From: a virus
DNA: 42,393 bases
Reading direction: 5' to 3' (one strand)
IMG/VR virus record: IMGVR_UViG_3300044675_006032
Coordinates: 1-42,393 of that record
Position numbers and translations under genes: made by a program. Positions 4,869 through 33,725 of the stretch are shown piece after piece (position 1 is the stretch's first letter; each line of letters starts with the position of its first letter). Under the pieces are notes generated by a model. It saw nothing but the letters and a program-made list of their open reading frames with translations, searched no databases and was not told the origin of the DNA.

Positions 4869-4869
4869 A

Positions 4870-5517: not shown

Positions 5518-5559
5518 TTTCGTAAAACGATAGTTTCTTGCAGTTGATCGCTTGCAGAG

Positions 5560-13419: not shown

Positions 13420-13423
13420 GAAT

Positions 13424-17428: not shown

Positions 17429-18742
17429 TTATGCTGATGGAGCCGCGTTGAACGAAACCTTCACGAAGGATTCTGGGCGCTTAACTGCAAGAGCCAAACG
17501 CTGTTCAGCAAGGATCACAATTGCGTTACGCACGAAGAAGTCTGCATGCTGTTCGCTGATGCGAATGCTTGCTGACTCACGGTCGTAAATCTGTGCTCCC
17601 GTACCGAATGCTCCGATAAGTGCAGTGCCTTCAGTCATTGCAGGAGTGTCCACAACAGGGATCCTCCACAACTTCTGCTCGCCACCCATTGCAACCGAGA
17701 CTGCTACGACATAAGCGCCGTTGCCGTCCTTGGTCAATTCAATGTCTTCCCAATCGTTCGGGTGCAATACAACGCCCGATGGCTCGTAGTAAGCCAAGAA
17801 TGAGAGGGTAGCGGCACGACGGAGTGCGTCTGCCTTGGTGTCGGTCATACCTGCGGTTGCCGAGTAGAAACCCGACGACCAGTTGTAGGTCTGAATGCCA
17901 CTGGTGTTCAAGATACCTGTAAGGTTCTCGCCCGTTCCTGAACCGTTAAGGATCTGTGCATCTTCCTGCAAGCGGAGACCGTACATCAACTCGTTGTCAA
18001 TGATTGAGCGCAGTTGTGGCTCATCAGCAAGAACATTGCGGTGTGCGGCTTCCCAGTGAGCCAAAGTGCGAACAGGAGCCTGCTCACCAACGAAGGTGAA
18101 AGACGACTGTGGCTTGGCTGCAAATGCGGAACCATTACGCTCAGCAACAGGTGCCGCGTTGTTGGTGAATCCGGTCATGCGGAAGTATTCAATGATTGCA
18201 GCAGTTGTGGTGCGACTTGGGAACAAGTCACGAACACGCTTGGTGCGCATTGGAGGAACAACAAGGGCATCGCGTTGGATTGTTCCAAACGAACCTGGGG
18301 TACCAGTTGGAAGTGCCGAGTACAAGTCTTTCTGACTGTAAACTTCACTGCTTGACTTGTATGGTGCTGGCATGTTTGCCGAACCACTTGCCAAAAGGGA
18401 CTTGAACTCTGCTGAAGCAAGGAATGCCTCACCAATGCTCTTGCGACCAAATGACTGTACTACTTGTTGCATTTCCTGCGAAGCGAAAGCCGAAGCCTGT
18501 GCTACTGAGTCCTGTGGTTGTGAAGCCCATTGGTCAGCATCGCGCATTGCCTCAAGACCCTCAACTAGGCTCTTGATTTCGCGGATGTCTGCCATGTTCT
18601 TATCAAACGCGGTCTTTTGTTCTGCGGATACTACTACGGTGCCGTCTTCAATTTTGAAGTTGTCGGCGATGGTCTTGTTTTCTGCCATCTTGGTGCGCAT
18701 TGCACCTTGAAGTTCAGTTAAACGGCTGTTGTCAAATGACAT
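17429..18742 (-). CDS. major capsid protein, HK97 fold
   Basis: A 437-aa HK97-family major capsid protein. A helical N-terminal region (residues 1-75, with ALEAMRDADQ-like heptads) corresponds to the delta/scaffold domain that the prohead protease removes. SIGEAFLASAEFKSLL precedes the N-arm; PSRTTTAAIIEYFRM and RTLAHWEAAHRNVLADEPQL match the E-loop/spine-helix region; QILNGSGTGENLTGIL is the diagnostic A-domain motif. Start ATG 18742 has AGGAG 8 nt upstream; the in-frame GTG 18751 overlaps it. It has its own promoter and terminator, which fits very high expression. Confidence 0.93.
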   Translation of the reverse strand: MSFDNSRLTELQGAMRTKMAENKTIADNFKIEDGTVVVSAEQKTAFDKNMADIREIKSLVEGLEAMRDADQWASQPQDSVAQASAFASQEMQQVVQSFGRKSIGEAFLASAEFKSLLASGSANMPAPYKSSSEVYSQKDLYSALPTGTPGSFGTIQRDALVVPPMRTKRVRDLFPSRTTTAAIIEYFRMTGFTNNAAPVAERNGSAFAAKPQSSFTFVGEQAPVRTLAHWEAAHRNVLADEPQLRSIIDNELMYGLRLQEDAQILNGSGTGENLTGILNTSGIQTYNWSSGFYSATAGMTDTKADALRRAATLSFLAYYEPSGVVLHPNDWEDIELTKDGNGAYVVAVSVAMGGEQKLWRIPVVDTPAMTEGTALIGAFGTGAQIYDRESASIRISEQHADFFVRNAIVILAEQRLALAVKRPESFVKVSFNAAPSA

Positions 18743-18825
18743 GTTGTTCACTCCTAGTGAATTGGATTTGGTTGGTGATTACTTATGTTTTTATTGCAGA
18801 CTTCGGTAAGCACCTAGTCCAGTTA

Positions 18826-18874: not shown

Positions 18875-18890
18875 CCCTAAAAAGTTAGGG
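18875..18890 (-). terminator. weak hairpin overlapping the stop of the 379-aa gene
   Basis: CCCTAA-n4-TTAGGG spans the stop codon at 18877, and on the minus strand is followed by GTTGCATTTTT. Short stem, so partial termination at most; it separates the effector-like cassette from the capsid promoter. Confidence 0.4.
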
Positions 18891-20016
18891 AATTTGAGTA
18901 GTGTCGTTTCACTACTCGTGGGCAACAGCCTTTGGAATATTTGACGCCGTATTCGCCTTCTTGGAATCCAGCCCACTTTTTGCTTGTTTTGCGGTTTCTC
19001 CATGGGTGATCCAACGGGAGTAGGTCGTTGTCATCAAAGTATTTTACATCGGCAGGTTTGTCTGAGTTCAGCAACGCCAAAAACTTGTAGACGCGCTTCT
19101 TGGCAATCTCTTTTGAACCATCTTCCAAGCCTCGCATGAAAACTATTTTGAGGTCACGAAGGTTGGTTTTTGCTGTTGTTTTTGCTTTAGCGTTGTTGTT
19201 TCTTACTCGTACAGCCAAATCATTGATATCGCCACTTGTCACGGTTGGTGGTTTCTTTTTAGGTTTCGGTACACCCTTGAAAGACACCAGACCAGTCTGA
19301 GCCATTGAACCCTGATCATCCTTTTTACCAAAACCCGCCCCCTTTCGGCGAGGTTTATTCCTAGGGCTGTTATCCCCTCGGATACCTGTGACGCGGTTGT
19401 AGTCAGACACATTAGAACATGGAAGCCAAACAAGTTTCCCATCCCGTGCCGTATAACGGCGAATACCGATACAGCCAAGATTCCTTGAACGGATACGAGC
19501 AGAATCAGGATCGCTGAACGTATCAGGGTCTGTTGAACGGCTAACAAAGTTAACGAAACCCTTTTCTTCTAAAGACTTACCAGAAAACGAGCCTGTTACA
19601 AGTCCGCCACCCGGCAAGGTTGCGATACCGGAAATAGGTTTCTCATCAAGGTTCTCCCAACCCCGTTTAGGTGCCTTGTGGTTACAAACCGCATAATACT
19701 TTTTCCCTGCAAGAAGGATGGTTCGCACACCACCACAACCACGAGCCTTAGAAATAGCGACAGCATCAGCACGATTCTCGTAATATGCATCAGACTTTGT
19801 TTCTAAACGCTTTGTCCGTTGAACCATTTTCGGCAACGGCTTCTTCTTCTTAGAAGCACGAACTTTCAAGTATTCGTCTTTGCCTTTTTTGATGGCTTCA
19901 TATTCTTCACGCGAGGCGCAAGGCATCCAACCTTTGCCGTCTTCGTATACGCCTTGGCATCCAAGCATGCGTGCAACACGAAGAGCCTGATCTCGCGTTG
20001 TTTTAGGATCGGTCAT
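18877..20016 (-). CDS. protein with three LGCxG Cys-pair repeats
   Basis: A 379-aa basic protein. Three related units occur: ARMLGCQGV...WMPC (C20-C33), SKARGCGGV...YAVC (C94-C111) and SRNLGCIGI...WLPC (C182-C200). Each has a helix, then [LR]GCxG[VI], a short strand pair and a closing Cys, often after Trp-Leu/Met-Pro. I have seen similar units in phage virion-associated proteins, without known function. A Lys/Arg-rich linker follows, and the C-terminus has a CC pair (YSKGCCPRVVKRHYS). Cys pairs could bind metal or form disulfides on virion release. It is the last gene of the effector-like cassette before the capsid gene. Confidence 0.75.
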   Translation of the reverse strand: MTDPKTTRDQALRVARMLGCQGVYEDGKGWMPCASREEYEAIKKGKDEYLKVRASKKKKPLPKMVQRTKRLETKSDAYYENRADAVAISKARGCGGVRTILLAGKKYYAVCNHKAPKRGWENLDEKPISGIATLPGGGLVTGSFSGKSLEEKGFVNFVSRSTDPDTFSDPDSARIRSRNLGCIGIRRYTARDGKLVWLPCSNVSDYNRVTGIRGDNSPRNKPRRKGAGFGKKDDQGSMAQTGLVSFKGVPKPKKKPPTVTSGDINDLAVRVRNNNAKAKTTAKTNLRDLKIVFMRGLEDGSKEIAKKRVYKFLALLNSDKPADVKYFDDNDLLPLDHPWRNRKTSKKWAGFQEGEYGVKYSKGCCPRVVKRHYSNSLTF

Positions 20017-20023
20017 TTATTTA

Positions 20024-20257
20024 TTATTCCGCCGTGTAAGGCATAGACATACCGTATTGTTCAAATAGTTCATCAATCTTTGAAGAATTCTCGCTATCCA
20101 TCAAAAACAATACCATTGATTCAAGATCTCCATCTTCACCAGTTTCGTCAGCGTATCCAGTAGCAATTGAAATAATCTTTGAACGCGTCTCCGAATTTTT
20201 GATAGTTGACAACAATTGGTCTTTTATTGAATTTTTTTGTTCTTCTGAAAGTTTCAC
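20024..20257 (-). CDS. small acidic helical protein paired with the 990-aa gene
   Basis: A 77-aa acidic protein (KNSETRSKIISIATG, GEDGDLESMVLFLMDS) predicted to be all helical. GTG 20257 overlaps the stop of the 990-aa gene by 4 nt (GTGA), so its translation is coupled. It differs from the other small partner proteins of the cassette. Possible chaperone, inhibitor or immunity factor for its large neighbour; inference only. Confidence 0.7.
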   Translation of the reverse strand: MKLSEEQKNSIKDQLLSTIKNSETRSKIISIATGYADETGEDGDLESMVLFLMDSENSSKIDELFEQYGMSMPYTAE

Positions 20258-23226
20258 GCGTTGCCCCTTGGTATTGCTCGTGCTCTTTGTCTCCGTGGAG
20301 CAGTTCCACCTATCTTGTTTTTAGCAAAAGAGAAAGTTCCACTACTAAACGGAAGATTGCTCTTGAACCAATGCTTAACAAACTCCCTGCGGACTTTGTC
20401 ATTAGCGGGATCATCAATAGCAAAAATCCAATCTTGGTGAATAAACTTTTTACCGCCACGAGTTTGAGCAATCATTGATTTGATTCTAAAATACTCCGCT
20501 TCAGAGTTAATCAAACCACCCGCACCAAAGTTTTCATAAAAAGATAGCGCTTTTTTGAATCCCCCTAGTCTGTTTTCGGGTATATTGCCACCATTAAAAC
20601 CAACTCTCGCCCAAACATATTGACCGTCATCAACTGCACCAACTTTTGCTTTACTGATACCAATCTGCTTTAAGAAAAGAAACGCATGCTGATTATAGAT
20701 TGTCTGTATGTCAGCGCCTCTGTCCATTTTGCTTCTCACGAACATGGTTGATTGTTTTACATATCCACTATTTACGCTCACGAGGCGACCGGAATCACCA
20801 ATTGCTGCACGAACAATATTCCCGTTTGCATCAATTTCATTGAATACGACACTCACGCTGTGCTGATCGTTGTTCCCTATTCGCACCGTTGCTACCGCAT
20901 TGTAAAGTTTTCCATTTGCACCCTCAATACGAGAATGACCATACGCTTCTTCTAAATACTTCTTTTTCCCCGCAAAGTCAAGCGAGCGCCATTTTTCTGG
21001 CGTCATATCCTCAAATGGTTTCTTTCCAGTACCGTAACGCTTTTCCATATACTTAGCAAGTTTTCCGCTACGACGCTTTATGGCATCGTCAATTTGTGAT
21101 TTGATCTTCTTCACAACATCTTCGTCTAGTGGTTTCACAACACCAGTTGCGTCAGGGTTGAAATTCAATCCTCTTTGAATTCTTTTTACTGCTTTGTCAA
21201 CTTCAGGTTCAAAACGATCATAATTCTTCAGCATCTGCTCGTATCGTCCAATACTTTCTTTCATTTTGGCAATATCTTTTGCCTTGCTGACGCGTAGTTC
21301 TTCCATTTGCGTTGGACTGAGATTTCCTGTTGGGTTCTTTATTAAAGCCCAAGCACTATCAACAGCGGCTTTGTCCCTGTTCAAAGCCTCACTGAGTTTG
21401 AGTCTGTTTAAAGCAATTCTTCGCACATAGGATGCTTGTGCTTCTTCAATTGTTTTTTTCAAATCAATTTGAGGATTGGCTTTATATTTCTCAATTATTG
21501 ATTGAAGCAAATCTTGAAAATCTCTTTCAGCAGCCATTCGACCCTGATTGTCATTAAATATCATTTCGTCAATATGCCGCCCAAAGTTTTGTAGATTTTT
21601 AGGGTCTTTGATTTGGAGCAATACATCTTCTACGATTTTTTCGTTTGCCGTAGAAAGGTTCGCTACGTCTATTTTTGCTGGTTTGAATACAAGTTCAGAT
21701 GGTGATTCATCACCAATGTTTGGAGGATTTGGTTTAACTCGTTTTGGTGTTTTGAATGGTGCGTCAATCGGGTCAATCGCAGGTACGGGAGCGGCGACTT
21801 CATCTTTGTTGGCATCAAGAATTTCCTGCCACGAATCGCGGTAATCCTTAATGTATGTCTTGACTCGTGCGATATTGATTTTTTCACCATTTCGTTCAAT
21901 GAAGTCATTGTCTGAAAGTTCGCCTCTGTCAATTGCTTGTTGTAGACGCTCCAACCTTGCGTTTGATGCAGTAATTTTTGCGCTTGCTTCATCCCTTTTA
22001 TCTCTTTTTCTGGCAGGAGTTTGCGGAAAATTGGCTGGATCATTAACAATCATTATTCGGTCATTTGGAATGACGTCACGAACAACATATTCTTGAAAAT
22101 TGTCGTCGTTCAACGCTTGATTCAAGTCAACTTTTCGTGCAGCCTTCCTTGCTCGTTTTCTTTTTTGTGCGTCAGCGATGGCAGCCAGAGCCATCGCCTC
22201 ACGGTTTCGCCTCATCTCCTCTGAACGAGCCGCGTTGTCGCTATCTCCGCGAGGTGCTGGTTTTGGAACCCTTCGCTGTTCTGATTCAGCGTTGAGCATC
22301 GCGCCTATGTCACCTTCAGGGTTTTTCCTAGGGCGACGAGGTTTAACAATCTTTGGCTCAACTATAGGTTTTTCAACAGCATTTTCTTTTTCTTGTTTTG
22401 GTGCTTTTGGCTTCTTTGTTGCTTCAACAACTGCACGGCGACGACGGCGAGCAGGTGCTTCGCCAGTACGCGGTGCACCGGGTTGTTCAATTTCACGATC
22501 CATGCGTCGTTGTTCTGATTCGCGTAGATTACCTTCACCCCTTGGCTGTACTGCACGCCGTCTGCGGGCAGGACGAGCAACAGCATTGCGTCGTTTCAAT
22601 TCCGCAATTACACGCTTGTAATCGTCGCTGTCTCTTCCGCCAGTAGCGTTTTCTAATTCGTCACGCATTTCTTGCAGAACATTTAGTGGTTCAGCCGCGA
22701 GGAGATTCCTATTGTTACGAGGCGGACGAGCAGGGGCTAATTCTCGTGGTGTGTCAGGTGCATCAACCGATGGTGGTCGAGCAACAACAGTTCGCCTACG
22801 ATCACCACGAGGGCTAGGTGCGTCTCCGCCGTCCAATCGTTCGGCAACGCCACGCAAACCTTGCTCAAGACGACCAGCGCCACCACCATTGGGATTAAGT
22901 CTTGCAAGTATCCGTCGTTCACGGCGAGCAATACGACGACCCCTACGAGCATCATCAACATTTTCCAAGCGTTGACCAATGTCAGATATTTGGTTTGCAA
23001 TCCGACGGGCTACACCCCATCCACAGGATCTACCAAAACGATCAGTTATTTGTCCACCGTAACGAGTACCAACTGGACAACGCCATCCACCGCGACGGTT
23101 GGTTCCCGGTATGGAAAGACTCGGATCCCACATAGCACGGACAGCCTTAACTTCGTAAGCCATCGTTGACGTGTTTCTTTCACTAAGGAAAGATTTTGCT
23201 TTAAAGTCAACAATGTTCTGAAGCAT
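20254..23226 (-). CDS. modular virion-associated effector candidate: C-x17-C module, disordered Arg/Pro linker, GNAT-like C-terminal domain
   Basis: A 990-aa protein. Residues 6-30 (VDFKAKSFLSER) and WDPSLSIPGTNRRGGWRC (33-50) lead to the C-x17-C module CPVGTRYGGQITDRFGRSC (50-68), then VARRIANQI and a coiled segment. Residues 110-400 are Arg/Pro/Ala-rich and probably disordered. Residues 400-730 are helical and charged. The C-terminal part (about 760-960) is a folded domain with YNAVATVRIGNN, GDSGRLVSV, FLFLKQIGISKAKVGA and DDGQYVWARVGF; the last two resemble the alpha-beta end of GNAT acetyltransferases and some phage toxin-like domains, which I hold with low certainty. The N-terminal half is nearly identical to that of two kinase-like neighbours, but this protein lacks the DRHxxN kinase motif. 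Confidence 0.8.
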   Translation of the reverse strand: MLQNIVDFKAKSFLSERNTSTMAYEVKAVRAMWDPSLSIPGTNRRGGWRCPVGTRYGGQITDRFGRSCGWGVARRIANQISDIGQRLENVDDARRGRRIARRERRILARLNPNGGGAGRLEQGLRGVAERLDGGDAPSPRGDRRRTVVARPPSVDAPDTPRELAPARPPRNNRNLLAAEPLNVLQEMRDELENATGGRDSDDYKRVIAELKRRNAVARPARRRRAVQPRGEGNLRESEQRRMDREIEQPGAPRTGEAPARRRRRAVVEATKKPKAPKQEKENAVEKPIVEPKIVKPRRPRKNPEGDIGAMLNAESEQRRVPKPAPRGDSDNAARSEEMRRNREAMALAAIADAQKRKRARKAARKVDLNQALNDDNFQEYVVRDVIPNDRIMIVNDPANFPQTPARKRDKRDEASAKITASNARLERLQQAIDRGELSDNDFIERNGEKINIARVKTYIKDYRDSWQEILDANKDEVAAPVPAIDPIDAPFKTPKRVKPNPPNIGDESPSELVFKPAKIDVANLSTANEKIVEDVLLQIKDPKNLQNFGRHIDEMIFNDNQGRMAAERDFQDLLQSIIEKYKANPQIDLKKTIEEAQASYVRRIALNRLKLSEALNRDKAAVDSAWALIKNPTGNLSPTQMEELRVSKAKDIAKMKESIGRYEQMLKNYDRFEPEVDKAVKRIQRGLNFNPDATGVVKPLDEDVVKKIKSQIDDAIKRRSGKLAKYMEKRYGTGKKPFEDMTPEKWRSLDFAGKKKYLEEAYGHSRIEGANGKLYNAVATVRIGNNDQHSVSVVFNEIDANGNIVRAAIGDSGRLVSVNSGYVKQSTMFVRSKMDRGADIQTIYNQHAFLFLKQIGISKAKVGAVDDGQYVWARVGFNGGNIPENRLGGFKKALSFYENFGAGGLINSEAEYFRIKSMIAQTRGGKKFIHQDWIFAIDDPANDKVRREFVKHWFKSNLPFSSGTFSFAKNKIGGTAPRRQRARAIPRGNA
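22453..22533 (-). repeat. shared GNLRESE..RMDREI segment, copy in the 990-aa gene
   Basis: Encodes GNLRESEQRRMDREI followed by QPGAPRTGE. A near-identical segment is encoded at 28875-28958 in the 890-aa gene; the 953-aa gene lacks it. Confidence 0.75.
22951..23160 (-). repeat. conserved N-terminal module, copy 1 (990-aa gene)
   Basis: Codes for about 70 residues including the C-x17-C module. Highly similar at protein level to 25811-26020 and 29241-29450, with scattered DNA differences mostly at third positions, indicating old duplication or recombination kept by selection. Confidence 0.85.
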
Positions 23227-23547
23227 TTATTTCCATTTTCCTATAAGGGTGTCGTACTTGCCGTCATACTGATTTGGTTCAATGAAATCTGAAGGATTTG
23301 GCGTATAGCCATTCCAATCCCAAAAACTCTCAAGTGATAATGCTTCGTATTCATACTTCTTTTTGTCATTTTCAACTTTTGACAATCTCTCCTTAAGAGA
23401 AGATAACCAATTCTTGTCGTTTTCATTTTCTTTTGGATTTACATATATAGAAACTTTTCCGTTTTTGATTACAACGATGTTGCGTGGTTCCTGTTTCTTT
23501 GCTTCATCATCAGAAAAGAAACTTACAAAATATCCATCTTCAATCAT
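23227..23547 (-). CDS. small partner protein (106 aa) between two large modular genes
   Basis: A 106-aa protein from ATG 23547, with GGGAG 6 nt upstream and 10 nt after the 953-aa gene stop; the frame to 23571 would overlap that gene. Its start, YFVSFFSDDEAKKQEPRNIVV then IKNGKVSIYVNP, shows the same strand-turn-strand layout as the 98-aa (26542) and 105-aa (31228) small proteins. A charged helix (WLSSLKERLSKVENDKKKYE) follows. Likely a companion of the 953-aa protein; function unknown. Confidence 0.7.
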   Translation of the reverse strand: MIEDGYFVSFFSDDEAKKQEPRNIVVIKNGKVSIYVNPKENENDKNWLSSLKERLSKVENDKKKYEYEALSLESFWDWNGYTPNPSDFIEPNQYDGKYDTLIGKWK

Positions 23548-23557
23548 TTGTTTCTCC

Positions 23558-26419
23558 CTATGGTCTTGCAAGACGAATCTCGTCCGCAGCCTCTTTCAGA
23601 TTTTTGAGATTGACTCGTATTGCTTGAATTGAGGCATCTATCTTGATTTTATCTGCTGGCGTAGCGGCATCCAATGAACCCCAAGCCTCTTTCATGTTTT
23701 CAACAATCAGATCAATTTGCTGTACTGTGAGTTTTGAAATTGAGTCTTGTATTTGCGCTAGTGCTGGTGCATCCTGTCGGTTGAACTGATCAACTGCGAG
23801 CATTCTTTTTGCATCCGCCTTGGATAGTTCTCTGATTTTTCCTACGCCGTTGTTGTAGATGCCATGGTCAATTGGGATTTGCTCATTTCCAACCCAGAGG
23901 TAGTTGCCTGCATGCCTATCGGGATTGCCCATAACGCGATCCAAAACTCGCACCATTCCTTGCGCTACTGGATCTATCTGATTTGGACGATTCCGTCCAG
24001 CCTTTATGTCACCGTCAACTACATCACCATAATGCTCTACAAGAATTGCCGCATTCCTAGTTATATTTCGGTGACCACGAATACTAACCATGTCTCCAGC
24101 AATTCTCACTCTAGACATCGGTCTGCCAAATGCTTGACCAAGCACCGCTGCGTATTGTTCACCAATAAATTCATTTTCAACAAAAGACGGGCTCTTTAGG
24201 ATATATTTTTTACCAGAAACAGCATCTTCCACTACATATGTTTTGTTCTTTTTGCTTCGTGACGCCCTGTTGTTGATTCCGTTACCCGGATCAGCCAACA
24301 ACTTAAATCGTTTTGAGATCTGACCAGCAGGCTCGTTCGGATAGTTTCCATTGGCAAGAATCGCATCTTTCAGGAAAGCATCTGGGACATCATCAAGATC
24401 TCCGCCATTTTTCACAAACTGATTTGCTTTTGCTTGTGTTGAAATGTTTGCGTTGCCCTTTTTCACTGCCTTGGGGACAAGTATTCCATCTATTTCAACG
24501 TGACCATGGTTTTTATTGAACCGTGACGCTTTGCTTTTCTTTATCCCTGCAACGTTTCGGTCATTGACTCTCTTCGCGGCTTCTTCGTCAAGTGAAACAA
24601 CATTATTTTTTGGTGCGTTTCTTACTCTCGGCGCTCTTGGGGGAGTTGGTGGTGTTGGAGGTTCTGGTGGTGTTGGCGAACCATCCCCCTGTGATGGTGG
24701 GGTAGGGGCGTTTAATTGTGCATTTATCCTGTTGCGAAGAGCGGTCAATCCTCCAGCAGGAACACCAAATTCTTCTCTGACCATTCTACGGTCTTGGAGT
24801 TGTTGGTTTCCTCTAACTGCCATCATCTGATCATCGTCTAATACATAATACGCATCACGACCAGAGGATTTTCCATTTTGCGTATATGCAACAACATGGA
24901 ATTGACGGTTCTCAAGTCTTGCGAGGCGGTTAGCCTTTTCTTTGGCATCTTCAAATCGGCTATAAGCAACACCAGTGTGGTCAAAATCTTGTGTTGGTTC
25001 AAGACGAGGATTCCTTGCCGCAGGGCGCACAGGTTTTACTGGTGCTGGTTCAGGTACATCATCAGGTGCGGGTTTCCGAGTTGCGCTACGGGCGGCGCCT
25101 GCTGTCGTTGCCTTCTTGCGACGACCACGGTTATTCCTTGGACGACGAGCCTGCGGTGTCGGTGGTTCAAAATCTTGTGGTGCGCTACGACCGTGAGCAT
25201 CTTTCCAAGCGTCACGAAGATTAGGTTTGTTGATTGCATACCATTCGCGGCGTGTCAACATTCCAGCATTTCCACCACCTGCACGGATTTCACGAACACG
25301 CTTAGCGTATTCGTTGTATTTTCTTAATACATATGGGCTGAAATCTTCTGATGCTCCTGCGTCTGATGCTTCGCGTGCTGTCAGTACATCAACATTGGCT
25401 GGTTGTGGTGCAACGCGTGGGCGTGGCTGTGGTCGTCGTTGTCCTGCTGGTGCAGGTCGGCGTGTAGGACGAGGTTTTGGCGCAGGTGTTGGCGCTGTTT
25501 CTGGAATAACATCGCGTCTCCTGTTTTGTGGTCGGCGAGCAGACGGTGCATCCACTTCTGCCTGTTCATTACCTTGCTGTCTTTCACCTCTAACAGCGTT
25601 CACAACTCTGCCAACATTGCTTGCATTCCAAACTTCGGCAGCGAATTCTCTACCTCCACCACGAGCCCTTCGTGGTTTCGGTTTGTCACCACCTTCAAGA
25701 CGATCAGCAATTCCTCTTAAACCACCTTCAACGCGACCAGTCTCGGGAACCCCACCAAGCCGTCTCATCATTCGTGCGTTACGACGGTCAAGGCGACGCT
25801 TTCGTTTGTCGTCATCTCGTTGTTCTAAGCGTTCACCAATGTCAGCGATTTGGTTGGCGATACGGCGTGCTACGCCCCAACCACACGAACGACCAAAGCG
25901 ATCGGTGATCTGTCCGCCATATCGTGTCCCTACAGGGCATCGGAAACCACCACGACGGTTAGTGCCGGGAATAGAAAGACTCGGATCCCAAATTGCTCGC
26001 ACACCTTTGATTTCAAAGTTGAAAGATGATTGGGTTTGATCAGAGATAAATGATGAAGCCTTAAAACTCAGAACATTTCGGAATTCTTCGTTTGAAAACT
26101 CAGAAAGTAAAACCTCAGATATTGACAGAACAGGAAGGTTTTTGGTTTCTACAATTTCCTGTTTAAGGAATGCAAGGTTTGCAACCTTTTTCTCTATCGC
26201 TGATCCTGATGGGCTTGGACCTTCAATAATTTTTGATGAGTCCATTGTTTGAACTAGTTCAGGTTTTGTTATAGGTGTTTTGCCATATTCTTGACGGAGA
26301 AATTTGGCAACTTCTTTAGCGGCTTCGGTCATTGGCTTGAAGGTGGATCCTTCAGGGGTCGTTGAGACGACCATAAATGGTGTGTTGTCGCGATTTTTGA
26401 TAATGAAAACTAGGTTCAT
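23558..26419 (-). CDS. modular kinase-like effector candidate with fused N-terminal partner domain (953 aa)
   Basis: A 953-aa protein. Residues 1-110 are an extra domain (NLVFIIKNRDNTPFMVVSTT) resembling the separate small partner proteins. Residues 118-180 carry the shared module with C161-x17-C179. Residues 205-600 are Arg/Pro/Ala-rich, including a run of PTPPxPP units. Residues about 650-690 hold KNGGDLDDVPDAFLKDAIL, a pre-kinase box shared with two neighbours. The C-terminal domain has a PI3/4-kinase/HipA-like catalytic core: Lys in KYILKSP (about 742), Glu in VENEFIGEQ, catalytic NPDRHAGN (D834) and metal-binding IPIDHG (D851). Phosphotransfer to protein, lipid or small molecule is likely; target unknown. 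Confidence 0.85.
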   Translation of the reverse strand: MNLVFIIKNRDNTPFMVVSTTPEGSTFKPMTEAAKEVAKFLRQEYGKTPITKPELVQTMDSSKIIEGPSPSGSAIEKKVANLAFLKQEIVETKNLPVLSISEVLLSEFSNEEFRNVLSFKASSFISDQTQSSFNFEIKGVRAIWDPSLSIPGTNRRGGFRCPVGTRYGGQITDRFGRSCGWGVARRIANQIADIGERLEQRDDDKRKRRLDRRNARMMRRLGGVPETGRVEGGLRGIADRLEGGDKPKPRRARGGGREFAAEVWNASNVGRVVNAVRGERQQGNEQAEVDAPSARRPQNRRRDVIPETAPTPAPKPRPTRRPAPAGQRRPQPRPRVAPQPANVDVLTAREASDAGASEDFSPYVLRKYNEYAKRVREIRAGGGNAGMLTRREWYAINKPNLRDAWKDAHGRSAPQDFEPPTPQARRPRNNRGRRKKATTAGAARSATRKPAPDDVPEPAPVKPVRPAARNPRLEPTQDFDHTGVAYSRFEDAKEKANRLARLENRQFHVVAYTQNGKSSGRDAYYVLDDDQMMAVRGNQQLQDRRMVREEFGVPAGGLTALRNRINAQLNAPTPPSQGDGSPTPPEPPTPPTPPRAPRVRNAPKNNVVSLDEEAAKRVNDRNVAGIKKSKASRFNKNHGHVEIDGILVPKAVKKGNANISTQAKANQFVKNGGDLDDVPDAFLKDAILANGNYPNEPAGQISKRFKLLADPGNGINNRASRSKKNKTYVVEDAVSGKKYILKSPSFVENEFIGEQYAAVLGQAFGRPMSRVRIAGDMVSIRGHRNITRNAAILVEHYGDVVDGDIKAGRNRPNQIDPVAQGMVRVLDRVMGNPDRHAGNYLWVGNEQIPIDHGIYNNGVGKIRELSKADAKRMLAVDQFNRQDAPALAQIQDSISKLTVQQIDLIVENMKEAWGSLDAATPADKIKIDASIQAIRVNLKNLKEAADEIRLARP
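25811..26020 (-). repeat. conserved N-terminal module, copy 2 (953-aa gene)
   Basis: Second copy of the module described at 22951-23160; here it lies about 110 codons into the gene, behind an extra N-terminal domain. Confidence 0.85.
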
Positions 26420-26422
26420 TGT

Positions 26423-26503
26423 TTACTTTCCACATTCGTGAAGATATTCAGCAAGCCATGCAAATCTTGAGGTTGCATTATCGCTACCGTAAAATGGTAT
26501 CAC
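26423..26503 (-). CDS. possible 26-aa leader peptide
   Basis: GTG 26503 opens a 26-codon frame (reading IPFYGSDNATSRFAWLAEYL in its middle) that ends 4 nt before the ATG of the 953-aa gene. The peptide is protein-like but there is no clear ribosome-binding site; it may be a leader peptide, a gene remnant or chance. The rest of the 26420-26541 gap shows nothing else. Confidence 0.25.
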   Translation of the reverse strand: MIPFYGSDNATSRFAWLAEYLHECGK

Positions 26504-26541
26504 TAAGTGGGTGATATTAATTTTAGGTTGATGTCAATATA

Positions 26542-26838
26542 TTATTTGTTATCTAATTTTTTGTGACCCAAGGCAACTAGGAAATTATTAATTTTATCCT
26601 TATTTGAACCCTTGTACTCAAGTATTTCTGCATGACGGTATGAGTACCCATGCAACATACTCTCAAGGTCAGCCTTATCCGACGAGCCTTTCTTGACCGC
26701 CAAAAAGTGTTCATTATCCTTTTTGTCGGAATCTTTATCCTTTGAGTAATACTTAATAATCCCTTTATCGTCCTCAACTATGACGAGTGGATCCACCTGA
26801 ACTAGTGGGTCTTTGGAGGTGATGATCGCTGCTCTCAT
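26542..26838 (-). CDS. small partner protein (98 aa)
   Basis: A 98-aa charged protein. Its start MRAAIITSKDPLVQVDPLVI matches the layout of the 105-aa protein MRYALVTPSTDVSGNPYVLL and the N-terminus of the 953-aa protein; the second half (LESMLHGYSYRH then DKINNFLVALG) parallels SGMSYHSVS and ITLLRQLAKKW of the 105-aa protein. AGGA lies before ATG 26838, 5 nt after the 890-aa gene stop. Probably a companion of the 890-aa kinase-like protein. Confidence 0.75.
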   Translation of the reverse strand: MRAAIITSKDPLVQVDPLVIVEDDKGIIKYYSKDKDSDKKDNEHFLAVKKGSSDKADLESMLHGYSYRHAEILEYKGSNKDKINNFLVALGHKKLDNK

Positions 26839-26843
26839 GGTTC

Positions 26844-29516
26844 CTATGATCCTATAATCAAATCAGCAAGTCTGCCGGGGTCAACATCTGTTATATATTT
26901 CATTTTTCTTTGCGGTTTTACGCCAACCCTCAAAAGAGCCTGATCCCCACCCCTAGGGTTAGCGGTTCCATCCCCACCGGCTTTCAGTACATCTTCAACA
27001 ACATTCATATACGGGTTTTTACGCTCTGCCTCACGGATGGACTTCTGAACCTCTTCAACGGCTAAGAGTATCTCGCGCCGACTTATTTGCCTATCTTTGA
27101 ATTGCTGTCTCAATGTTGCAAGCATCTCGTTTCTTCTACCACCAACATCGTTGCCTAAAAAGCCTCGTAATCCTTCGTCGTTACCATCATAATTTTCGTG
27201 AGCCCGCCCACCCCAGTTGACATCAAACCCAAGAGAAGGATCAATTGGGACGAACCGCTTCTTACCACTGGAGTCAGTCGCTACAAAGAAGTTCCCTCCA
27301 TGGCGGTCTCTGTTGACCATGATGTAGTCCAAAAGTGTCGCTCTAACACGATCGGCGGGTTTTATTTGCGACACGGCTACTTGATTTCTTCCGTCTGTCA
27401 GCGCCCCATCAACGTAGTTCCCTGCGTGTTCATAAACAATAGCCCTACCAGCGCTGTTAGGGGCACCCGGTCCACCTTTTTGTTTTCCATCCATTCGCAC
27501 ACCACCGATAGGCATGCCAAGTCTACCAGCAAGATTATTGCCAATCACTTCATGAATGTCTTCGTTTTCTGCATGGGCACCACTTTGGTATTTTAAGAAA
27601 AACTTGTTTCCAGTGATGGCGTCGGTAAACATATGCATATTGTTGGGAATGTTGCCGTTAACACCACCACCAGCATCTGATTTAGAGAATCTTGTTGTTG
27701 CACCGTGTAGCGCTTCACCCAATAACTCATCAGGGACATCAGCCAAATCTCCACCTTTTTCTAGGTGGTCAATTGCTTGCTCCTTGGTATCCATACCTTT
27801 GTTCCCCAATGGAACGCTTTTCACATCAGGCAAACCGTCTTCACCTAATTTGTTCAGTTTTTCTGGTGCATGACCATCTTTTGCTTTTGGTGGTGAGACA
27901 TCCCATCCACCTTCTGGTTCTGGTATGTCTGCTGGTCGTTGTGGTGGTTGCGCTGGTTGCTGTACGCGTGGAGCGTTCTGGTCGTTGACATTATTATTTG
28001 GTACAACAACTTGATTTCGTTGCCTAAATTCAATAGCAGCATCAATTTCGGCAAGTCTTAATTCGGCAGCGGAAACTCCGTCTTTTATTTTTTCTTTTTG
28101 TCCCCACATTCGCAATAAATTATCTCTGGCTTCGTCTCTTTCCCGTTCGCTACCATTCTTTTTACTCTGCCAGTCTTCAAAGGCTCTATCAAATCCTGCT
28201 TGAGCCTCTTTGAGAAGTTCTTGATCTCTAATTTTCTTTCCCAAAACTTCTTCTTTGGACATGTTGCGCAAATTATTGTAAGCGTTCGGCTTGTATCTTT
28301 CAATTTCCCCTTCTACTGCTTTGACTAAAGCCTCGTCTCTTTGCTGGTCAAACTCCCTGCGGGGGTTTATGTCTCTTGCTGGCAGTGGCGGTGGACCTGC
28401 TCGTCGTGCAGGTGCTTCAGGTTCAGGCTGTGGCGCTCCTGCTTGTTGCCCAAATATTTGTTGGTTAACAAAATTGCCACGAGCATTACGCTTGTTGTTG
28501 TCATCGTAATACCGACCAAACCTTCTCTCTAGTTCGGCTTTTTCTTCGCCTTCAGGGAAGTCTGGTTTACGCCAATACGCATCTTCGGGTAGTCCGCGAA
28601 GATCGCCAAATCGGTTAACAACATTACGGATAGAACGATCGTCCGGTATGCTCCCTCCCAACTCGTCTGCTGTTGGGTTCCATGCGGGTGGTGGTGGAAT
28701 TGGTGATGATTGTTCCGCTGGTCGTTCTGGTGGTTTTGGTGCGGGTTTTCTGCGTGGCACCTTTGTCGGTACAGGTTTTGAACCGTCAACAAAATCTGCT
28801 TCAGGTTTTCTTCTAACAGTTCTTTTTGCGCCTTGTTGTGTAGCGTTTCGTCGGCGTCGTCGTGGAGCATTTGGTGCGGGTGGTTCACCTGTGCGTGGTG
28901 CGCCGGGTTGAACTATTTCTCTGTCCATTCTTCGTGCTTCTGATTCACGGAGATTTCCTCTTCTCCGAGGTGCCCGTGCTGGTTCTCTTGCTGGTTGTTC
29001 AGCATCTCCGCCAACAGGGATTCTTGGACGAGCAGGAGGTTCTATGCGTGCAGGATTTTGAACAGCGATTCGTGGACGAGCAGGAGCGCGTGGAGTAGTT
29101 ACTGGTTTTCCAGTTGCTCCACCATCTAACGCGTCTGCCAAACCGCGAGCGCCACGCTCAAGTAAGCCGGGTTTATCTTGACGAGCCAAAAACCGTTGCA
29201 CACGCGCATTCCGTTTTGCCAAACGAGCATTTCGTTTACGGTCGTCAACATTTTCTAGCCGTTCACCAATATCTGCTATCTGGTTTGCGATTCTCCGAGC
29301 AACACCCCACCCGCAAGACCTTCCGTAACGGTCAGTGATTTGACCGCCATATCTTGTACCAACAGGGCAACGCCAACCACCACGGCGATTGGTGCCCGGA
29401 ATAGACAAACTTGGATCCCAGAGAGCGCGAGCGCCTTTAACATCATAATTAAAAGTACTTGCAGTTTGCTCAGCGAGAAACGCGAGCGCCTTGTAATTCA
29501 CTTCATTCTTGAGCAT
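26844..29516 (-). CDS. modular kinase-like effector candidate (890 aa)
   Basis: An 890-aa protein. N-terminus NEVNYKALAFLAEQ and WDPSLSIPGTNRRGGWRC lead to the module C50-x17-C68. Residues 90-520 are Arg/Pro-rich linker, with the GNLRESEARRMDREI segment at 187-201 and a charged helical part at about 380-480. The pre-kinase box EKGGDLADVPDELLGEAL lies around residue 575. The kinase-like core has Lys in FFLKYQS (K642), Glu in ENEDIHEVIG, NRDRHGGN (D737) and VPIDPSLG (D759). The C-terminal tail ends DVDPGRLADLIIGS, similar to MTPKQLADIIVVP of the 617-aa protein. It abuts the 572-aa gene (TAA then ATG). Confidence 0.85.
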   Translation of the reverse strand: MLKNEVNYKALAFLAEQTASTFNYDVKGARALWDPSLSIPGTNRRGGWRCPVGTRYGGQITDRYGRSCGWGVARRIANQIADIGERLENVDDRKRNARLAKRNARVQRFLARQDKPGLLERGARGLADALDGGATGKPVTTPRAPARPRIAVQNPARIEPPARPRIPVGGDAEQPAREPARAPRRRGNLRESEARRMDREIVQPGAPRTGEPPAPNAPRRRRRNATQQGAKRTVRRKPEADFVDGSKPVPTKVPRRKPAPKPPERPAEQSSPIPPPPAWNPTADELGGSIPDDRSIRNVVNRFGDLRGLPEDAYWRKPDFPEGEEKAELERRFGRYYDDNNKRNARGNFVNQQIFGQQAGAPQPEPEAPARRAGPPPLPARDINPRREFDQQRDEALVKAVEGEIERYKPNAYNNLRNMSKEEVLGKKIRDQELLKEAQAGFDRAFEDWQSKKNGSERERDEARDNLLRMWGQKEKIKDGVSAAELRLAEIDAAIEFRQRNQVVVPNNNVNDQNAPRVQQPAQPPQRPADIPEPEGGWDVSPPKAKDGHAPEKLNKLGEDGLPDVKSVPLGNKGMDTKEQAIDHLEKGGDLADVPDELLGEALHGATTRFSKSDAGGGVNGNIPNNMHMFTDAITGNKFFLKYQSGAHAENEDIHEVIGNNLAGRLGMPIGGVRMDGKQKGGPGAPNSAGRAIVYEHAGNYVDGALTDGRNQVAVSQIKPADRVRATLLDYIMVNRDRHGGNFFVATDSSGKKRFVPIDPSLGFDVNWGGRAHENYDGNDEGLRGFLGNDVGGRRNEMLATLRQQFKDRQISRREILLAVEEVQKSIREAERKNPYMNVVEDVLKAGGDGTANPRGGDQALLRVGVKPQRKMKYITDVDPGRLADLIIGS
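28875..28958 (-). repeat. shared GNLRESE..RMDREI segment, copy in the 890-aa gene
   Basis: Encodes GNLRESEARRMDREI then VQPGAPRTGE; counterpart of 22453-22533 in the 990-aa gene. Confidence 0.75.
29241..29450 (-). repeat. conserved N-terminal module, copy 3 (890-aa gene)
   Basis: Third copy of the module at 22951-23160. The DNA keeps long matches around the GGATCCCA and GGGCAACGCCA stretches. Confidence 0.85.
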
Positions 29517-31235
29517 TTATTTTTTCTTCTTTGCGCTAACCAAGTCTGGTTTGATGAAGGTTTCGTACTGCCAACGAGGTGCTGTTCTTTCAATACCGTC
29601 AAGACCTGTGTAAGTAACGAGTTCTAGAGGCTTTGGAAGCCTACCAGTATCAGCGATGAACTTGAATGCGCCTTCGGATTTTTTGGCGAAATCCTCAATG
29701 TTAGAAATGATGTTGTCTTTAGTGCTTGATTCTGCAAGAGAGTTAATCATTCGTGGGAACTTGCGCTTCTCGCCGATGGTAAATGGTCGTGAACGCTCAA
29801 TGCTTACGACTACTCCGTTCGGCGCAACGAACGAGATTCTGCTCATAGATGGTCCACCAAGAAGGGCAAGATCATCAGCACCTATGTCGGATGGGAGTTG
29901 CACTGCACGAACCATAGCACCGTCAACCATGTCAGGGTTCTCACTAAATGAACGAAGAACAGAAGATGGAACAACTGGTCGTAGAACAACACCATCTCGT
30001 CGGATCATTCGTCCTTCGCCTGCTGGTGCACCTTTGAGTGTTGATATTGATTGCTGTACGGAAGCGTTGAACTTATCTTTTTGGAAAGCGCCAGTTCGCG
30101 GGATTTGTGCCATACGACTAATTTGGATTGTGCGCGTGTTGCTTGGGTTACCTTCTAGAACTTCTGAAAGATTTTCTGCTCGTGCTGTTGGCAATTTTGG
30201 TGGTGCAAGTCTTCGGGCTGCTCGTGCGAGCAACGCTAGTGGTCCTGGTATTTCAAACAACTGCGCTCCACATGTTGAGAAACGGTTGTCTGTGAAACGA
30301 CCACCATATTCAAAACCGCTCGGGCATCGTGCTTGACGCCTGCGATTAGGCTTGAGCCTGCTGAGCGCCCCACCGCCACCGCCGGGAATAAGTGCGCCAT
30401 AAAGTCTTGAGCGAATAGGTGCGCTGAATGGGGATATGTTGCCCGGTGTTACTACTGAACCAACCGCCTGAGCGGCTCTACCAAGTCCACTTGAAGAACC
30501 AACAAGACCTGCTTTGATTTCCATGTCTTCAGCGTCATCTTTTTCAACACGGTATCCACCGCCACGCTTCTTGTATTCGCGAACAAGCCAAGCGTTTGCG
30601 TATGCGGACGGGTATACATTGAATTTCTTTTTTGCTTCGGCTTTTACTCGCGCATAAAGTTCTTTGTCCGTTGGGATATTCGCACCTTTTAATGTGGTCT
30701 CATCAGATTTGAATGTGGACACATTGATCGGCTTGTTTTCTTCTCGGTTACCCGCTGTTTCTGCACGACGCTTTCTGCGAACAGCGGAATCAATTTCTTC
30801 TGCGGACATTCTCATCGCTGTAGATTTCTTTACACACTTAGGGTATTTACCTGAATCTGCGTCTCCGCGACCACATGACTCAAATCCGCCACCTTTTTTC
30901 GGGCGTGAAATATCAACCCATTCTTCTTCAAACCATTTCCCTAATCCACCGCGCTTGGATTCATCACCGATAAAGGTTTCCGCACCTAGTTTTGATGTAC
31001 GAGACTTTAGGTAAAGTTTTGCTTTAAAGTTTAGAAGAGCCCTACTTCCGTCAAGCGGAGTTTTACGAACATCTGATCCTTTAGTGAAAAGGAATTTTGT
31101 TTTTGCATTATCTGGGTTAAAATAAATTTCCTCACCAGAGACAATATTCGTCCGTTTCATAGCAGTTTTCATACGCATAGACATACGGAGTTTCCGTGCG
31201 AAATACTCAAAGTCTTGGTTGAGATAACTACTCAT
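29517..31235 (-). CDS. multi-motif virion-associated protein: DUF5872-like, YPSAYAN and C-x17-C modules (572 aa)
   Basis: A 572-aa protein built from several phage motifs. Residues 66-78 (LLNFKAKLYLKSR) echo the N-terminal FKAKSFLSER of the large neighbours. Residues 99-160 match the DUF5872-type signature: KWFEEEWVDISRPKKGGGF, ESCGR (C121), YPKC (C134), then a basic helix. VYPSAYANAWLVREYKKRGG at 207-226 is another motif I recall from phage and large-virus proteins. RCPSGFEYGGRFTDNRFSTC (C304-x17-C322) is the shared module. The C-terminal 220 residues form an unrecognised folded region (VVVSIERSRPFTIGEKRKFP). No kinase motif. Likely a virion component; exact role unknown. Confidence 0.75.
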   Translation of the reverse strand: MSSYLNQDFEYFARKLRMSMRMKTAMKRTNIVSGEEIYFNPDNAKTKFLFTKGSDVRKTPLDGSRALLNFKAKLYLKSRTSKLGAETFIGDESKRGGLGKWFEEEWVDISRPKKGGGFESCGRGDADSGKYPKCVKKSTAMRMSAEEIDSAVRRKRRAETAGNREENKPINVSTFKSDETTLKGANIPTDKELYARVKAEAKKKFNVYPSAYANAWLVREYKKRGGGYRVEKDDAEDMEIKAGLVGSSSGLGRAAQAVGSVVTPGNISPFSAPIRSRLYGALIPGGGGGALSRLKPNRRRQARCPSGFEYGGRFTDNRFSTCGAQLFEIPGPLALLARAARRLAPPKLPTARAENLSEVLEGNPSNTRTIQISRMAQIPRTGAFQKDKFNASVQQSISTLKGAPAGEGRMIRRDGVVLRPVVPSSVLRSFSENPDMVDGAMVRAVQLPSDIGADDLALLGGPSMSRISFVAPNGVVVSIERSRPFTIGEKRKFPRMINSLAESSTKDNIISNIEDFAKKSEGAFKFIADTGRLPKPLELVTYTGLDGIERTAPRWQYETFIKPDLVSAKKKK

Positions 31236-31545
31236 TTTTTGCCGATTCTTTCGGTTCTTCAGGTTCCGCTATTTCTGCGGGCAAGGTTGTCTTCCACTTT
31301 TTAGCCAACTGCCTTAAAAGTGTAATATTTTTTTCATCCAGCACATTAGTACTAACACTATGATACGACATTCCCGAGGTTGCTTTTTCAATAGTGTCCC
31401 TTTGGGACAGAAACAATTCGTTTGTCAAACTTGATGCGAACTTCGGGTCAGGGGCTACCACACCAAAAATGCCGTAATCTCCTTCCAGTAGGACATATGG
31501 GTTTCCCGAAACATCGGTGCTTGGGGTTACAAGGGCGTATCTCAT
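31228..31545 (-). CDS. small partner protein (105 aa)
   Basis: A 105-aa protein. ATG 31545 overlaps the stop of the 617-aa kinase-like gene by 4 nt (ATGA), and its end overlaps the 572-aa gene by 8 nt, so all three are coupled. The first half is strand-rich (YALVTPSTDVSGNPYVLLEG), the second helical (ITLLRQLAKKWKTTLPAE). Similar in layout to the 98-aa protein at 26542 and to residues 1-50 of the 953-aa protein. Probable companion of the 617-aa protein. Confidence 0.75.
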   Translation of the reverse strand: MRYALVTPSTDVSGNPYVLLEGDYGIFGVVAPDPKFASSLTNELFLSQRDTIEKATSGMSYHSVSTNVLDEKNITLLRQLAKKWKTTLPAEIAEPEEPKESAKNE

Positions 31546-33395
31546 ACAACACTCGCTACAAGATCTTCTAATGCCGAATCCGCTTTAGGGGCAGGTGGTA
31601 CAACAATGATGTCTGCCAACTGTTTTGGGGTCATCCCTTGCATTTCTCTTAGGCGTGACGCTGACTTTCTGATATCTGACTGCAACGTTTCTAGTTGCTC
31701 CAACTGCTCAGGGTTCATCGCAAATTCGCCTATCAAATTGCGATCCTTGACCATCTCGTCAAGTTGGCTCAAAAGGCGATCTTCCAATGAATCTGCGTCA
31801 ATTTTCTGTATATCTTGTAGAACCTTTTCGGCTTCCCCAACTAGTTCGCCATGGCTTTCGGCTGATCTACCATGACGCAAAGTAAGTTCGTTGCCGACTG
31901 GATGATTACGAATACCTGAAGAAAATTTTTCTGCTGTATCACTAAATTCGTAAACGCTCATCACAAAACTATGGTCAATAGGGATGGCGTCAACACCATC
32001 GGAGTTTTCCGCGAACAGAATGTTCCCACTATGCCTATCTCCATTAGCCAAAACAATATCCATCACATGCATATGAACCAATTTTCGGCTATCAACTTTT
32101 TTCATCACTTCCGGATCAGAAGAAAGAATCTTCCCTTCGTATGAGTTATGAACCAGATCCGTAACAACACCCATAGCCGCCCTAGTTGGTGCTGCTTGAA
32201 CCACGCGAAGCGAAGACGATGGATAGCCAAACTCCTCAGTTATTGACACAGCAAGAACCTCATTCACAGGTTCAAACCATCGGGATGCTCCACCCTTGGT
32301 CAGGGGTGCTTTGCTATGCGGAACATTCTCATCCCACATGGACTGCCGTGAAGCGTATTTGACACCAAACATTTGACCTGTTGACCTATCTCGGAAGCGA
32401 TTCATCCCTACGACACCGCCACCAGTGCCAAGTAACTCAAATCGCTTTATTTCTGAAACATTGCCTTCAGAGTCGTAAACATCAATATTTTCTAGAATCG
32501 CGTCAAGTACCAAAGCATCACTTATTTCATTTAGTTTTCCGCCATTGGCAATATGCTGTGAAGCCTTCTCAACTGTGTCAATGTCTTTTTTGACAGTAGG
32601 GAGATCTCTTGAAATATTTCTTCCGTTTGCATCAGCAATACCTATAACAGGATCAAAATCTTTTGCCTTCGCAATAGTGCTATTGCCTTTCTTGAAACCG
32701 CTAGGCGATTTGACCACGGGTGGATCAGCCTTCGGATCCTCTTTTTTATCTTTGCGACGCTTTAATGTCGCTAGGAGGAAATTCTTTGCATCAACGGTGG
32801 CGTCTCGTTTAATCTTCCCCGCTACTGCTTCCAACTGTTCTTTTTTCTTGTCAGATATTTTCCCGCGCCTATGAAGCGAGTCAGTAGCAAAGTCCAATAG
32901 TTGCGCACCGCCAGACTTCAATAAAACCATACCGAAAAGCGTAGATTGTGTCATTGAATCTGAACCATCTGCGTACATGTAATCCATTGTTTGCAGGGCA
33001 ATCATCGCCGCTGCTTTTGAACCATTTTTTACTTTTTCAGATTTGAAAATTACCCGAGCGCCATCAATCAATTTCCCAGCCATGGAAGCCGCCCCGCGTG
33101 CTGCTGATTCAGCAGAAGGGGTGAGGCAGTTGGACATCTGCATGTCGGTGAACTGATTTGCGTTAGGTGTACCGGGTGGGCATCGCAACTTACCCAAAGA
33201 ATCAACTATCACCCCCGCAGCGCGCGCCGCTCTATGACCGACGGAGGTTAACTCTGGTCGGTCTTTTACAGTAGGTCCAAGGAAACCTTTGAACAGCAAA
33301 ACATTCTCTTGAACAGCAGCAACAGATTTGCGGTATTCTGCAACTCTCTCGTTTGCGTCAAAAGCGCGAGACGATTTGATCATCGCCTCAACCAA
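31542..33395 (-). CDS. modular kinase-like effector candidate (617 aa)
   Basis: A 617-aa protein. It has a short version of the shared module, RCPPGTPNANQFTDMQMSNC (C72-x17-C90), then a helical region (100-215) instead of the long Arg/Pro linker. The pre-kinase box IANGGKLNEISDALVLDAIL is at 282-301, followed by FELLGTGGGV and the Lys of FGVKYAS (K346). The catalytic loop ANGDRHSGN has D453, and AIPIDHSF has the metal-binding D474. This is the PI3/4-kinase/HipA-like arrangement with all catalytic positions present. The C-terminus ends MTPKQLADIIVVP. Start: TTG 33395 directly after the upstream stop, or ATG 33383; neither has an ideal ribosome-binding site. Confidence 0.83.
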   Translation of the reverse strand: MVEAMIKSSRAFDANERVAEYRKSVAAVQENVLLFKGFLGPTVKDRPELTSVGHRAARAAGVIVDSLGKLRCPPGTPNANQFTDMQMSNCLTPSAESAARGAASMAGKLIDGARVIFKSEKVKNGSKAAAMIALQTMDYMYADGSDSMTQSTLFGMVLLKSGGAQLLDFATDSLHRRGKISDKKKEQLEAVAGKIKRDATVDAKNFLLATLKRRKDKKEDPKADPPVVKSPSGFKKGNSTIAKAKDFDPVIGIADANGRNISRDLPTVKKDIDTVEKASQHIANGGKLNEISDALVLDAILENIDVYDSEGNVSEIKRFELLGTGGGVVGMNRFRDRSTGQMFGVKYASRQSMWDENVPHSKAPLTKGGASRWFEPVNEVLAVSITEEFGYPSSSLRVVQAAPTRAAMGVVTDLVHNSYEGKILSSDPEVMKKVDSRKLVHMHVMDIVLANGDRHSGNILFAENSDGVDAIPIDHSFVMSVYEFSDTAEKFSSGIRNHPVGNELTLRHGRSAESHGELVGEAEKVLQDIQKIDADSLEDRLLSQLDEMVKDRNLIGEFAMNPEQLEQLETLQSDIRKSASRLREMQGMTPKQLADIIVVPPAPKADSALEDLVASVV

Positions 33396-33725
33396 CTATT
33401 TGTCGCTAGATTCTGACGCTTTGTTAAAGAAAGAAAGTGGAACAACATCATCATCCTCTGCATCTTTTTTCTTAGAAGGCTTTTTCGTTTCCACTTTGGT
33501 TTCTTGTGCATCCTCAACAGGTTCATCAACGCTGATCTCTACTGATGCAGGTGTTTCAACTTCCAACACTGCTTCTTCAACGACAACTACTTCCTCTTTG
33601 ACTTCAACCTCAACAACAGAAATCTGAACTTCAGGCGTCTCAACTACGGGCACTTGTTCTTGTTTTGTGTCAAAAGCAAGACCAGAAGTGTTCACTGAGT
33701 CAAAAGGTTGGTTTTCTTTTTTCAT
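33396..33725 (-). CDS. acidic low-complexity protein, scaffold-like
   Basis: A 109-aa protein dominated by Val-Glu repeats (VVEVEVKEEVVVVEEAVLEV) with a basic patch KKPSKKKD near residue 85. Low complexity and highly acidic, as in scaffolding or internal head proteins. It shares one base with the stop of the upstream gene (TAATG). Probable assembly factor by position between protease and capsid genes; no family recognised. Confidence 0.7.
   Translation of the reverse strand: MKKENQPFDSVNTSGLAFDTKQEQVPVVETPEVQISVVEVEVKEEVVVVEEAVLEVETPASVEISVDEPVEDAQETKVETKKPSKKKDAEDDDVVPLSFFNKASESSDK

Follow-up and report, generated by a model that had tools for sequence, protein, structure and literature searches.

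Exchangeable C-terminal domains and paired small genes in a head-operon array of a putative actinophage

Five large proteins and four small downstream ORFs

The window analysed here is the 42,393-base IMG/VR record IMGVR_UViG_3300044675_006032, a viral sequence whose close relatives reach 145 kb. In its head operon, five large open reading frames (ORFs) of 617, 572, 890, 953 and 990 aa lie between the prohead protease and major capsid protein (MCP) genes, and a small ORF (77–114 aa) is found directly downstream of A617, C890, D953 and E990. The order of transcription, on the minus strand, is portal-MuF fusion, S78 protease, p492, p109, A617, p105, B572, C890, s98, D953, p114, E990, s77, p379 and HK97 capsid protein, and this block of candidate effector genes sits between the protease and MCP genes in every contig that spans the interval. 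A first-pass annotation of the window had described the five large ORFs, whose coordinates and strand we verified, as a cassette of modular kinase-bearing proteins. The small ORFs were absent from that annotation, and a paired, co-varying gene is the strongest polymorphic-toxin feature of the locus.

The slot-A candidate effector, A617 (31542..33395; minus strand, as are all coordinates of window features in this and the next three sections), overlaps its partner ORF p105 (105 aa, 31228..31545) by 4 nt. After B572 (29517..31235) comes the slot-C protein C890 (26844..29516), with its partner s98 (98 aa, 26542..26838) 5 nt downstream. The slot-D protein D953 (23558..26419) has an N-terminal extension of ~112 aa, and its end is overlapped by its partner p114 (114 aa, 23227..23571). 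The slot-E protein E990 (20254..23226) overlaps its partner s77 (77 aa, 20024..20257) by 4 nt.

The large proteins are related through shared modules. A motif search of all six reading frames of the window found the pattern CPxG-x(6-9)-TD-x(4-6)-C, which we call the Cys-pair module, at five positions only, one per large protein (A617, 33126-33182; B572, 30270-30326; C890, 29313-29369; D953, 25883-25939; E990, 23023-23079), and it is the short stretch that A617 and B572 have in common with the others. C890 and E990 begin with ~140 aa that are ~66% identical to each other and to residues 113-250 of D953. The linkers of C890, D953 and E990 are rich in Arg (10.6–11.3%) and Pro (5.8–8.5%). The paralogy and the Arg/Pro-rich linkers reported in the first-pass annotation are thus borne out, as is the layout of conserved N-terminal and variable C-terminal parts, which is seen directly across 39 related IMG/VR contigs. 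In relatives of A617, for instance, the N-terminal region (residues 1-210) is kept while the C-terminal domain (CTD) is replaced. At the level of sequence, then, the layout is modular: a conserved N-terminal part with the Cys-pair module, joined to an exchangeable C-terminal domain of predicted enzymatic type.

Predicted kinase and acetyltransferase folds

The label 'kinase-bearing' holds for three of the five proteins, A617, C890 and D953, in which the DRHxGN loop is intact. Their kinase regions, located with a kinase profile (A617, ~31605-32633, PI3/4K-like; C890, 26853-27842; D953, 23591-24493), align pairwise at 25–33% identity (E 1e-13 to 1e-21). Pfam family PF00454 matches A617 above the cut-off (2e-7) and matches C890 and D953 more weakly. 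We aligned 46 kinase domains encoded by the window and its related contigs, many of them 15–30% identical to C890, and found that E112, D193, R194, H195, N198 and D215 are invariant and that K98 is retained in at least 90%. The kinase profile matched the catalytic loop of PI4K, PI3K and PIKK enzymes in the PDB (E 4e-6), and a structural model of the C890 kinase (pLDDT 90, pTM 0.91) gave CotH, PI4KII-alpha, CtkA, HipA and HipT as its top PDB matches by Foldseek. The claim that three proteins have intact PI3/4-kinase/HipA-like motifs therefore stands, and based on residue conservation and the C890 model we firmly assign the predicted domains of A617, C890 and D953 to the PI3/4K/HipA/CotH-like fold. 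We infer that all three would be catalytically active. The slot-B proteins of four relatives (G006, G007, G008 and G009) also match the kinase profile weakly (E 2e-5 to 3e-8), and this slot-B family is possibly a degenerate kinase.

The other two proteins do not fit the kinase label. The C-terminal 331 residues of E990 had no sequence match in the PDB, but an AlphaFold2 (AF2) model of this region (pLDDT 83) matched almost exclusively GNAT acetyltransferases in Foldseek (best E 9e-4), the matching part corresponding to ~20602-20937. The modest E-values and low TM scores of these matches are explained by alignment of only the GNAT part of the model. In an 18-row alignment, T183, Y185 and N186 are invariant in a conserved segment before a helix, and a Pfam GNAT match is absent. 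By its model, the E990 C-terminal domain is a GNAT-like acetyltransferase fold and not a kinase; the expectation of kinase folds at the C-termini is thus upheld by the C890 model and contradicted by that of E990. B572, which combines the Cys-pair module with DUF5872 (PF19197, 5e-14), has no partner ORF and is present in nearly all relatives, and the domain scan recognised no enzyme or effector domain in it.

The C-terminal domain and the small gene are exchanged together

In the 39 related contigs, too, the block consists of large and small ORFs in series. We grouped the large proteins into CTD families by their last 330 residues, with a threshold of 38% identity over 130 residues, and about ten main families were distinguished among the small ORFs. 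The partner family was shared in 147 of 157 pairs of proteins with the same CTD, compared to 322 of 3003 pairs with different CTDs. The mutual information between CTD and partner was 2.12 in the mid slots (null maximum 1.25) and 1.74 in slot A (null maximum 1.58), and in neither case did any of 10,000 within-slot shuffles reach the observed value. Where two N-termini are at least 80% identical and the CTDs are unlike, the partners differ too, in 26 of 26 pairs; in one such case, G015 and G023, the N-termini are 98% identical while CTD and partner are both different. Furthermore, a D953-type CTD with a p114-type partner also occupies another slot in two relatives, G005 and G006.

The exchange can be delimited sharply in the DNA. 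Between the window and relative G017 the flanks are 84–86% identical, but there is no match across 23242..25029, a segment that holds D953 codons ~464-953 and nearly all of p114, and the boundaries in two further contigs, G011 and G012, equal those of G017 within ~20 bases. Thus, the C-terminal domain and the small gene behind it are swapped as a unit. In G008, a kinase (3712-5754) and partner (3380-3730) are also found 55 kb from the head block, with a different N-terminal sequence (DADNDGIVQEGT); this outlying pair resembles a kinase-partner pair of the block at 38% and 31% identity, respectively.

No significant homology was found between partner families: the best hhalign matches between families, s0-s4 (E 0.005) and s2-s8 (E 0.004), had probabilities below 10%. 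This argues against a single chaperone family, and the proposal that all partners belong to one was accordingly disfavoured. We also considered the N-terminal extension of D953 as a fused partner and dropped this idea, since a comparison of the extension with the partner families gave no match.

Other domains and displaced remnants in the slots

A search of related contigs for other C-terminal domains in the cassette, as the first-pass annotation had proposed, was productive. In slot A, relatives carry an HExxH protein in which H153, E154 and H157 are invariant, a DUF3626 domain (PF12294, 6e-10) or a ParB-like domain (PHROG, 1e-5 to 1e-10). The profile of the HExxH CTD matched only lethal factor in the PDB, weakly (E 0.43) and outside the motif; its label as a putative metallopeptidase derives from the invariant HExxH.

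Two slot-A proteins (G021 and G028) contain both a kinase and an HExxH domain, and behind each lie two partners, which belong to the two corresponding families. Several contigs retain displaced remnants beside newer modules. The G004 kinase is split by a ParB-like domain and has a degenerate DRH loop. G014 has an HExxH module and, behind it, a decayed DUF3626 CTD and a partner tail; G002 and G016 carry the DUF3626 module in intact form. Truncated p105-like ORFs remain behind a different CTD and partner in G022 and G024. Leftover displaced modules of this kind are typical of polymorphic toxin loci such as contact-dependent inhibition (CDI) and Rhs systems.

Neighbouring genes

Upstream of the block on the minus strand are the portal-MuF fusion (37457..39661; PF04860 1e-49, PF04233 9e-8), the S78 prohead protease with accessory domains (35258..37360; PF04586, E 6e-11) and p492, an acidic head-locus protein containing PepSY (33725..35203; PF03413 2e-5). 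The portal fusion is the only scanned protein with a MuF domain, and no candidate effector is fused to MuF. Downstream, also on the minus strand, are the DUF3721 protein p379 (18877..20016; PF12518 5e-12) and the HK97-type MCP (17429..18751; PF05065, E 4e-47).

The p379 gene has the form of an empty slot: four relatives (G017, G012, G004 and G001) have an additional domain there, inserted at codon ~148 and 430 aa long in G017, and the G001 protein is split into ORFs of 431 and 424 aa. The G001 protein in this slot looked by eye like an ADP-ribosyltransferase; Pfam, PHROGs, NCBIfam and the PDB gave no confirmation and we make no such claim. In p253 (window 16589-17350), the half formed by DUF6321 (aa 144-253) recurs as an internal domain of the prohead protease in G003, G005, G006, G018 and others, indicating that head-locus modules shuffle between structural proteins. 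Outside the head block are genes for histone-deacetylase-like (window 13382-14365), PhyH dioxygenase (5734-6498), B12-dependent ribonucleotide reductase (10099-12027) and GlcNAc-transferase (1033-2247) proteins.

Relatives and probable host

The window phage family most likely consists of non-integrating actinophages. This reading of the sequences is based on three observations: WhiB (PF02467) is present in 13 of 13 large contigs and, among 14 control genomes, in Corynebacterium only; the nearest cultured relatives of the portal are Streptomyces and Gordonia phages; and no tyrosine or serine recombinase (PF00589, PF00239) was found in the 13 large contigs, which reach 145 kb and are possibly incomplete. 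We judged the host by WhiB and by the similarity of the portal, because the MCP relatives in GTDB are only a few contigs from metagenome-assembled genomes (MAGs), of mixed assignment. Two of these MAG contigs, L189 and L191, have capsid relatives 66% identical to that of the window phage; their bins are assigned to the non-actinobacterial groups Phycisphaerae and Verrucomicrobiales, and they are probably mis-binned phage contigs.

The large proteins themselves have no close counterparts in the collections that we searched. A617, C890, D953 and E990 had no tblastn match at E 0.01 among 50,697 phage records, in agreement with the earlier statement that no such phage system was known to its author, and the N-terminal module had no relative in GTDB genomes. 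The kinase profile detected no kinase of the window's family in three cultured relatives, DalanDe, Gilgamesh and GMA6. At the array position, GMA6 has an ADP-ribosyltransferase exoenzyme gene (PF03496, 2e-11), and Streptomyces phage Gilgamesh encodes a single 4624-aa protein (31978-45852) between its portal and capsid genes.

Interpretation of the array

We favour, with moderate confidence, the interpretation that the block is a head-operon array of packaged and injected effectors with cognate inhibitors, in a large and probably virulent actinophage. Packaging of the effectors into the virion is suggested by the position of their genes. The N-terminal modules would carry each effector into the prohead, and the enzyme would enter the cell with the DNA and modify host proteins early in infection. 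The partner proteins would act as inhibitors: each small protein, made late with its effector, would bind and silence the CTD in the producing cell until packaging, so that late co-expression protects the cell that makes the virions and the effector reaches the next cell without its inhibitor. Recombination between the common N-terminal and linker sequences would swap CTDs and so continually renew the set of effectors deployed against targets in the host or in rival phages. By analogy with HipA and HipT, one might guess that the kinases act on translation factors.

Several points weigh against this interpretation. The contigs are related, so that the counts of CTD-partner association are not independent events, and there are exceptions to the association (CTD7 with family 0 or 7, CTD2 with family 15). 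The interpretation also presumes that an integrase-free phage would need immunity-like genes. Finally, the partners could be CTD-specific chaperones instead. If the small proteins were loading chaperones or assembly adaptors, as for type III secretion effectors, the large proteins would still be packaged, and both the small, translationally coupled ORFs and the several unrelated partner families, each associated with a single CTD, would be accounted for. However, a delivery chaperone would be expected to go with the conserved N-terminal targeting part, and the partner instead tracks the exchangeable CTD, which fits an inhibitor better; truncated orphan partners after a CTD swap are, moreover, typical of immunity genes. 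We therefore regard chaperones as unlikely, though a serious alternative.

The large proteins might instead be structural or morphogenetic head proteins with enzymes that act on phage proteins, for example by capsid phosphorylation, their variability being ordinary mosaicism. Their genes are, after all, in the head operon, their Cys-rich modules are common to other head-locus proteins, and domains of the B572, p379 and p253 types are shuffled among head proteins. Nevertheless, interchange of kinase, HExxH, DUF3626 and ParB-like domains at one position fits poorly with a fixed assembly step; paired gene replacement and the remnants also weigh against this account, which we consider improbable. 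Least probable, and in our view very much so, is an array aimed at other phages, in which delivered or late-made effectors shut down a co-infecting or superinfecting relative that lacks the matching partner: an effector with a matched partner has a kin-discriminating logic in apparently non-integrating phages, and close relatives do differ in their alleles (N-termini 98% identical, CTD different), but delivered effectors that act on the host account for the same facts.

If the array of injected effectors and inhibitors is real, one phage particle would hold three kinases and an acetyltransferase, with a dedicated off-switch for each, and the natural swaps would supply matched effector-inhibitor pairs with which to identify what an infection targets first in the host. 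It would also raise the question of why immunity-like genes are retained in phages that apparently do not integrate. A more far-reaching proposal, which we offer tentatively and think possible but on balance doubtful, is an undescribed multi-slot polymorphic effector-immunity system in the head operon of virulent actinophages, in which several PI3/4K-like kinases and other enzymes per virion are injected with the genome and the inhibitors also discriminate kin from rivals when phages co-infect a cell.

Comparison with known systems

We compared the array with systems described in open PMC papers. Phage-injected effectors are known mostly as single cases, such as T4 Alt, an ADP-ribosyltransferase that is packaged, injected and modifies host proteins; we know of no partner gene for Alt. 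The window proteins would resemble Alt in function, as proposed packaged and injected host-modifying enzymes, but differ in their multi-slot array and enzyme class. Alt, the model put forward in the first-pass annotation, is not the nearest one; among known classes, MuF polymorphic toxins and polyvalent proteins come closest.

The kinase domains have the fold of HipA, HipBST, CotH and CtkA (Foldseek prob 1.00, TM ~0.4–0.5) at only 11–14% identity, and those are bacterial toxin-antitoxin, spore-coat or secreted kinases, whereas the proteins here belong to a phage head locus. The mycobacteriophage PEST cassettes (PMC10654092) similarly combine a phage-borne polymorphic toxin with a co-evolving immunity gene. 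Their TOX domains recombine, and experiments demonstrated that the toxins are toxic and that the immunity genes protect; they are secreted through ESX by lysogens via WXG100 N-termini and do not form a head-operon array.

Polyvalent proteins (Iyer et al. 2017, PMC5512222) are large multi-domain phage proteins encoded near virion genes, with similar domain types (metallopeptidase, ParB-like, ADP-ribosyltransferase, GNAT and kinase), and packaging and injection have been predicted for them. Their kinases, however, are protein kinases that lost the C-lobe, and here each candidate effector has a gene of its own, in a fixed slot and paired with a partner. A search of the survey's text (PMC5512222) found neither a PI3/HipA-type kinase nor the term 'immunity protein', and the window proteins would add a kinase class to those that the searched text names.

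The defining feature of MuF toxins is a MuF domain at the N-terminus, and Jamet et al. 2017 (PMC5576092) describe them as restricted to temperate phages. They too are head-locus proteins with variable C-terminal effectors and a small downstream immunity-like ORF, for which loading into the head and injection have been proposed (PMC5576092). Here, in contrast, MuF is on the portal and on none of A617, B572, C890, D953 and E990; there are four paired slots rather than one toxin, with predicted kinase and GNAT CTDs; and the 13 large, possibly incomplete contigs have no integrase. The array shares with polymorphic toxin-immunity systems in general a conserved N-terminus with diverse CTDs, a CTD-specific small gene downstream, and displaced or orphan modules.

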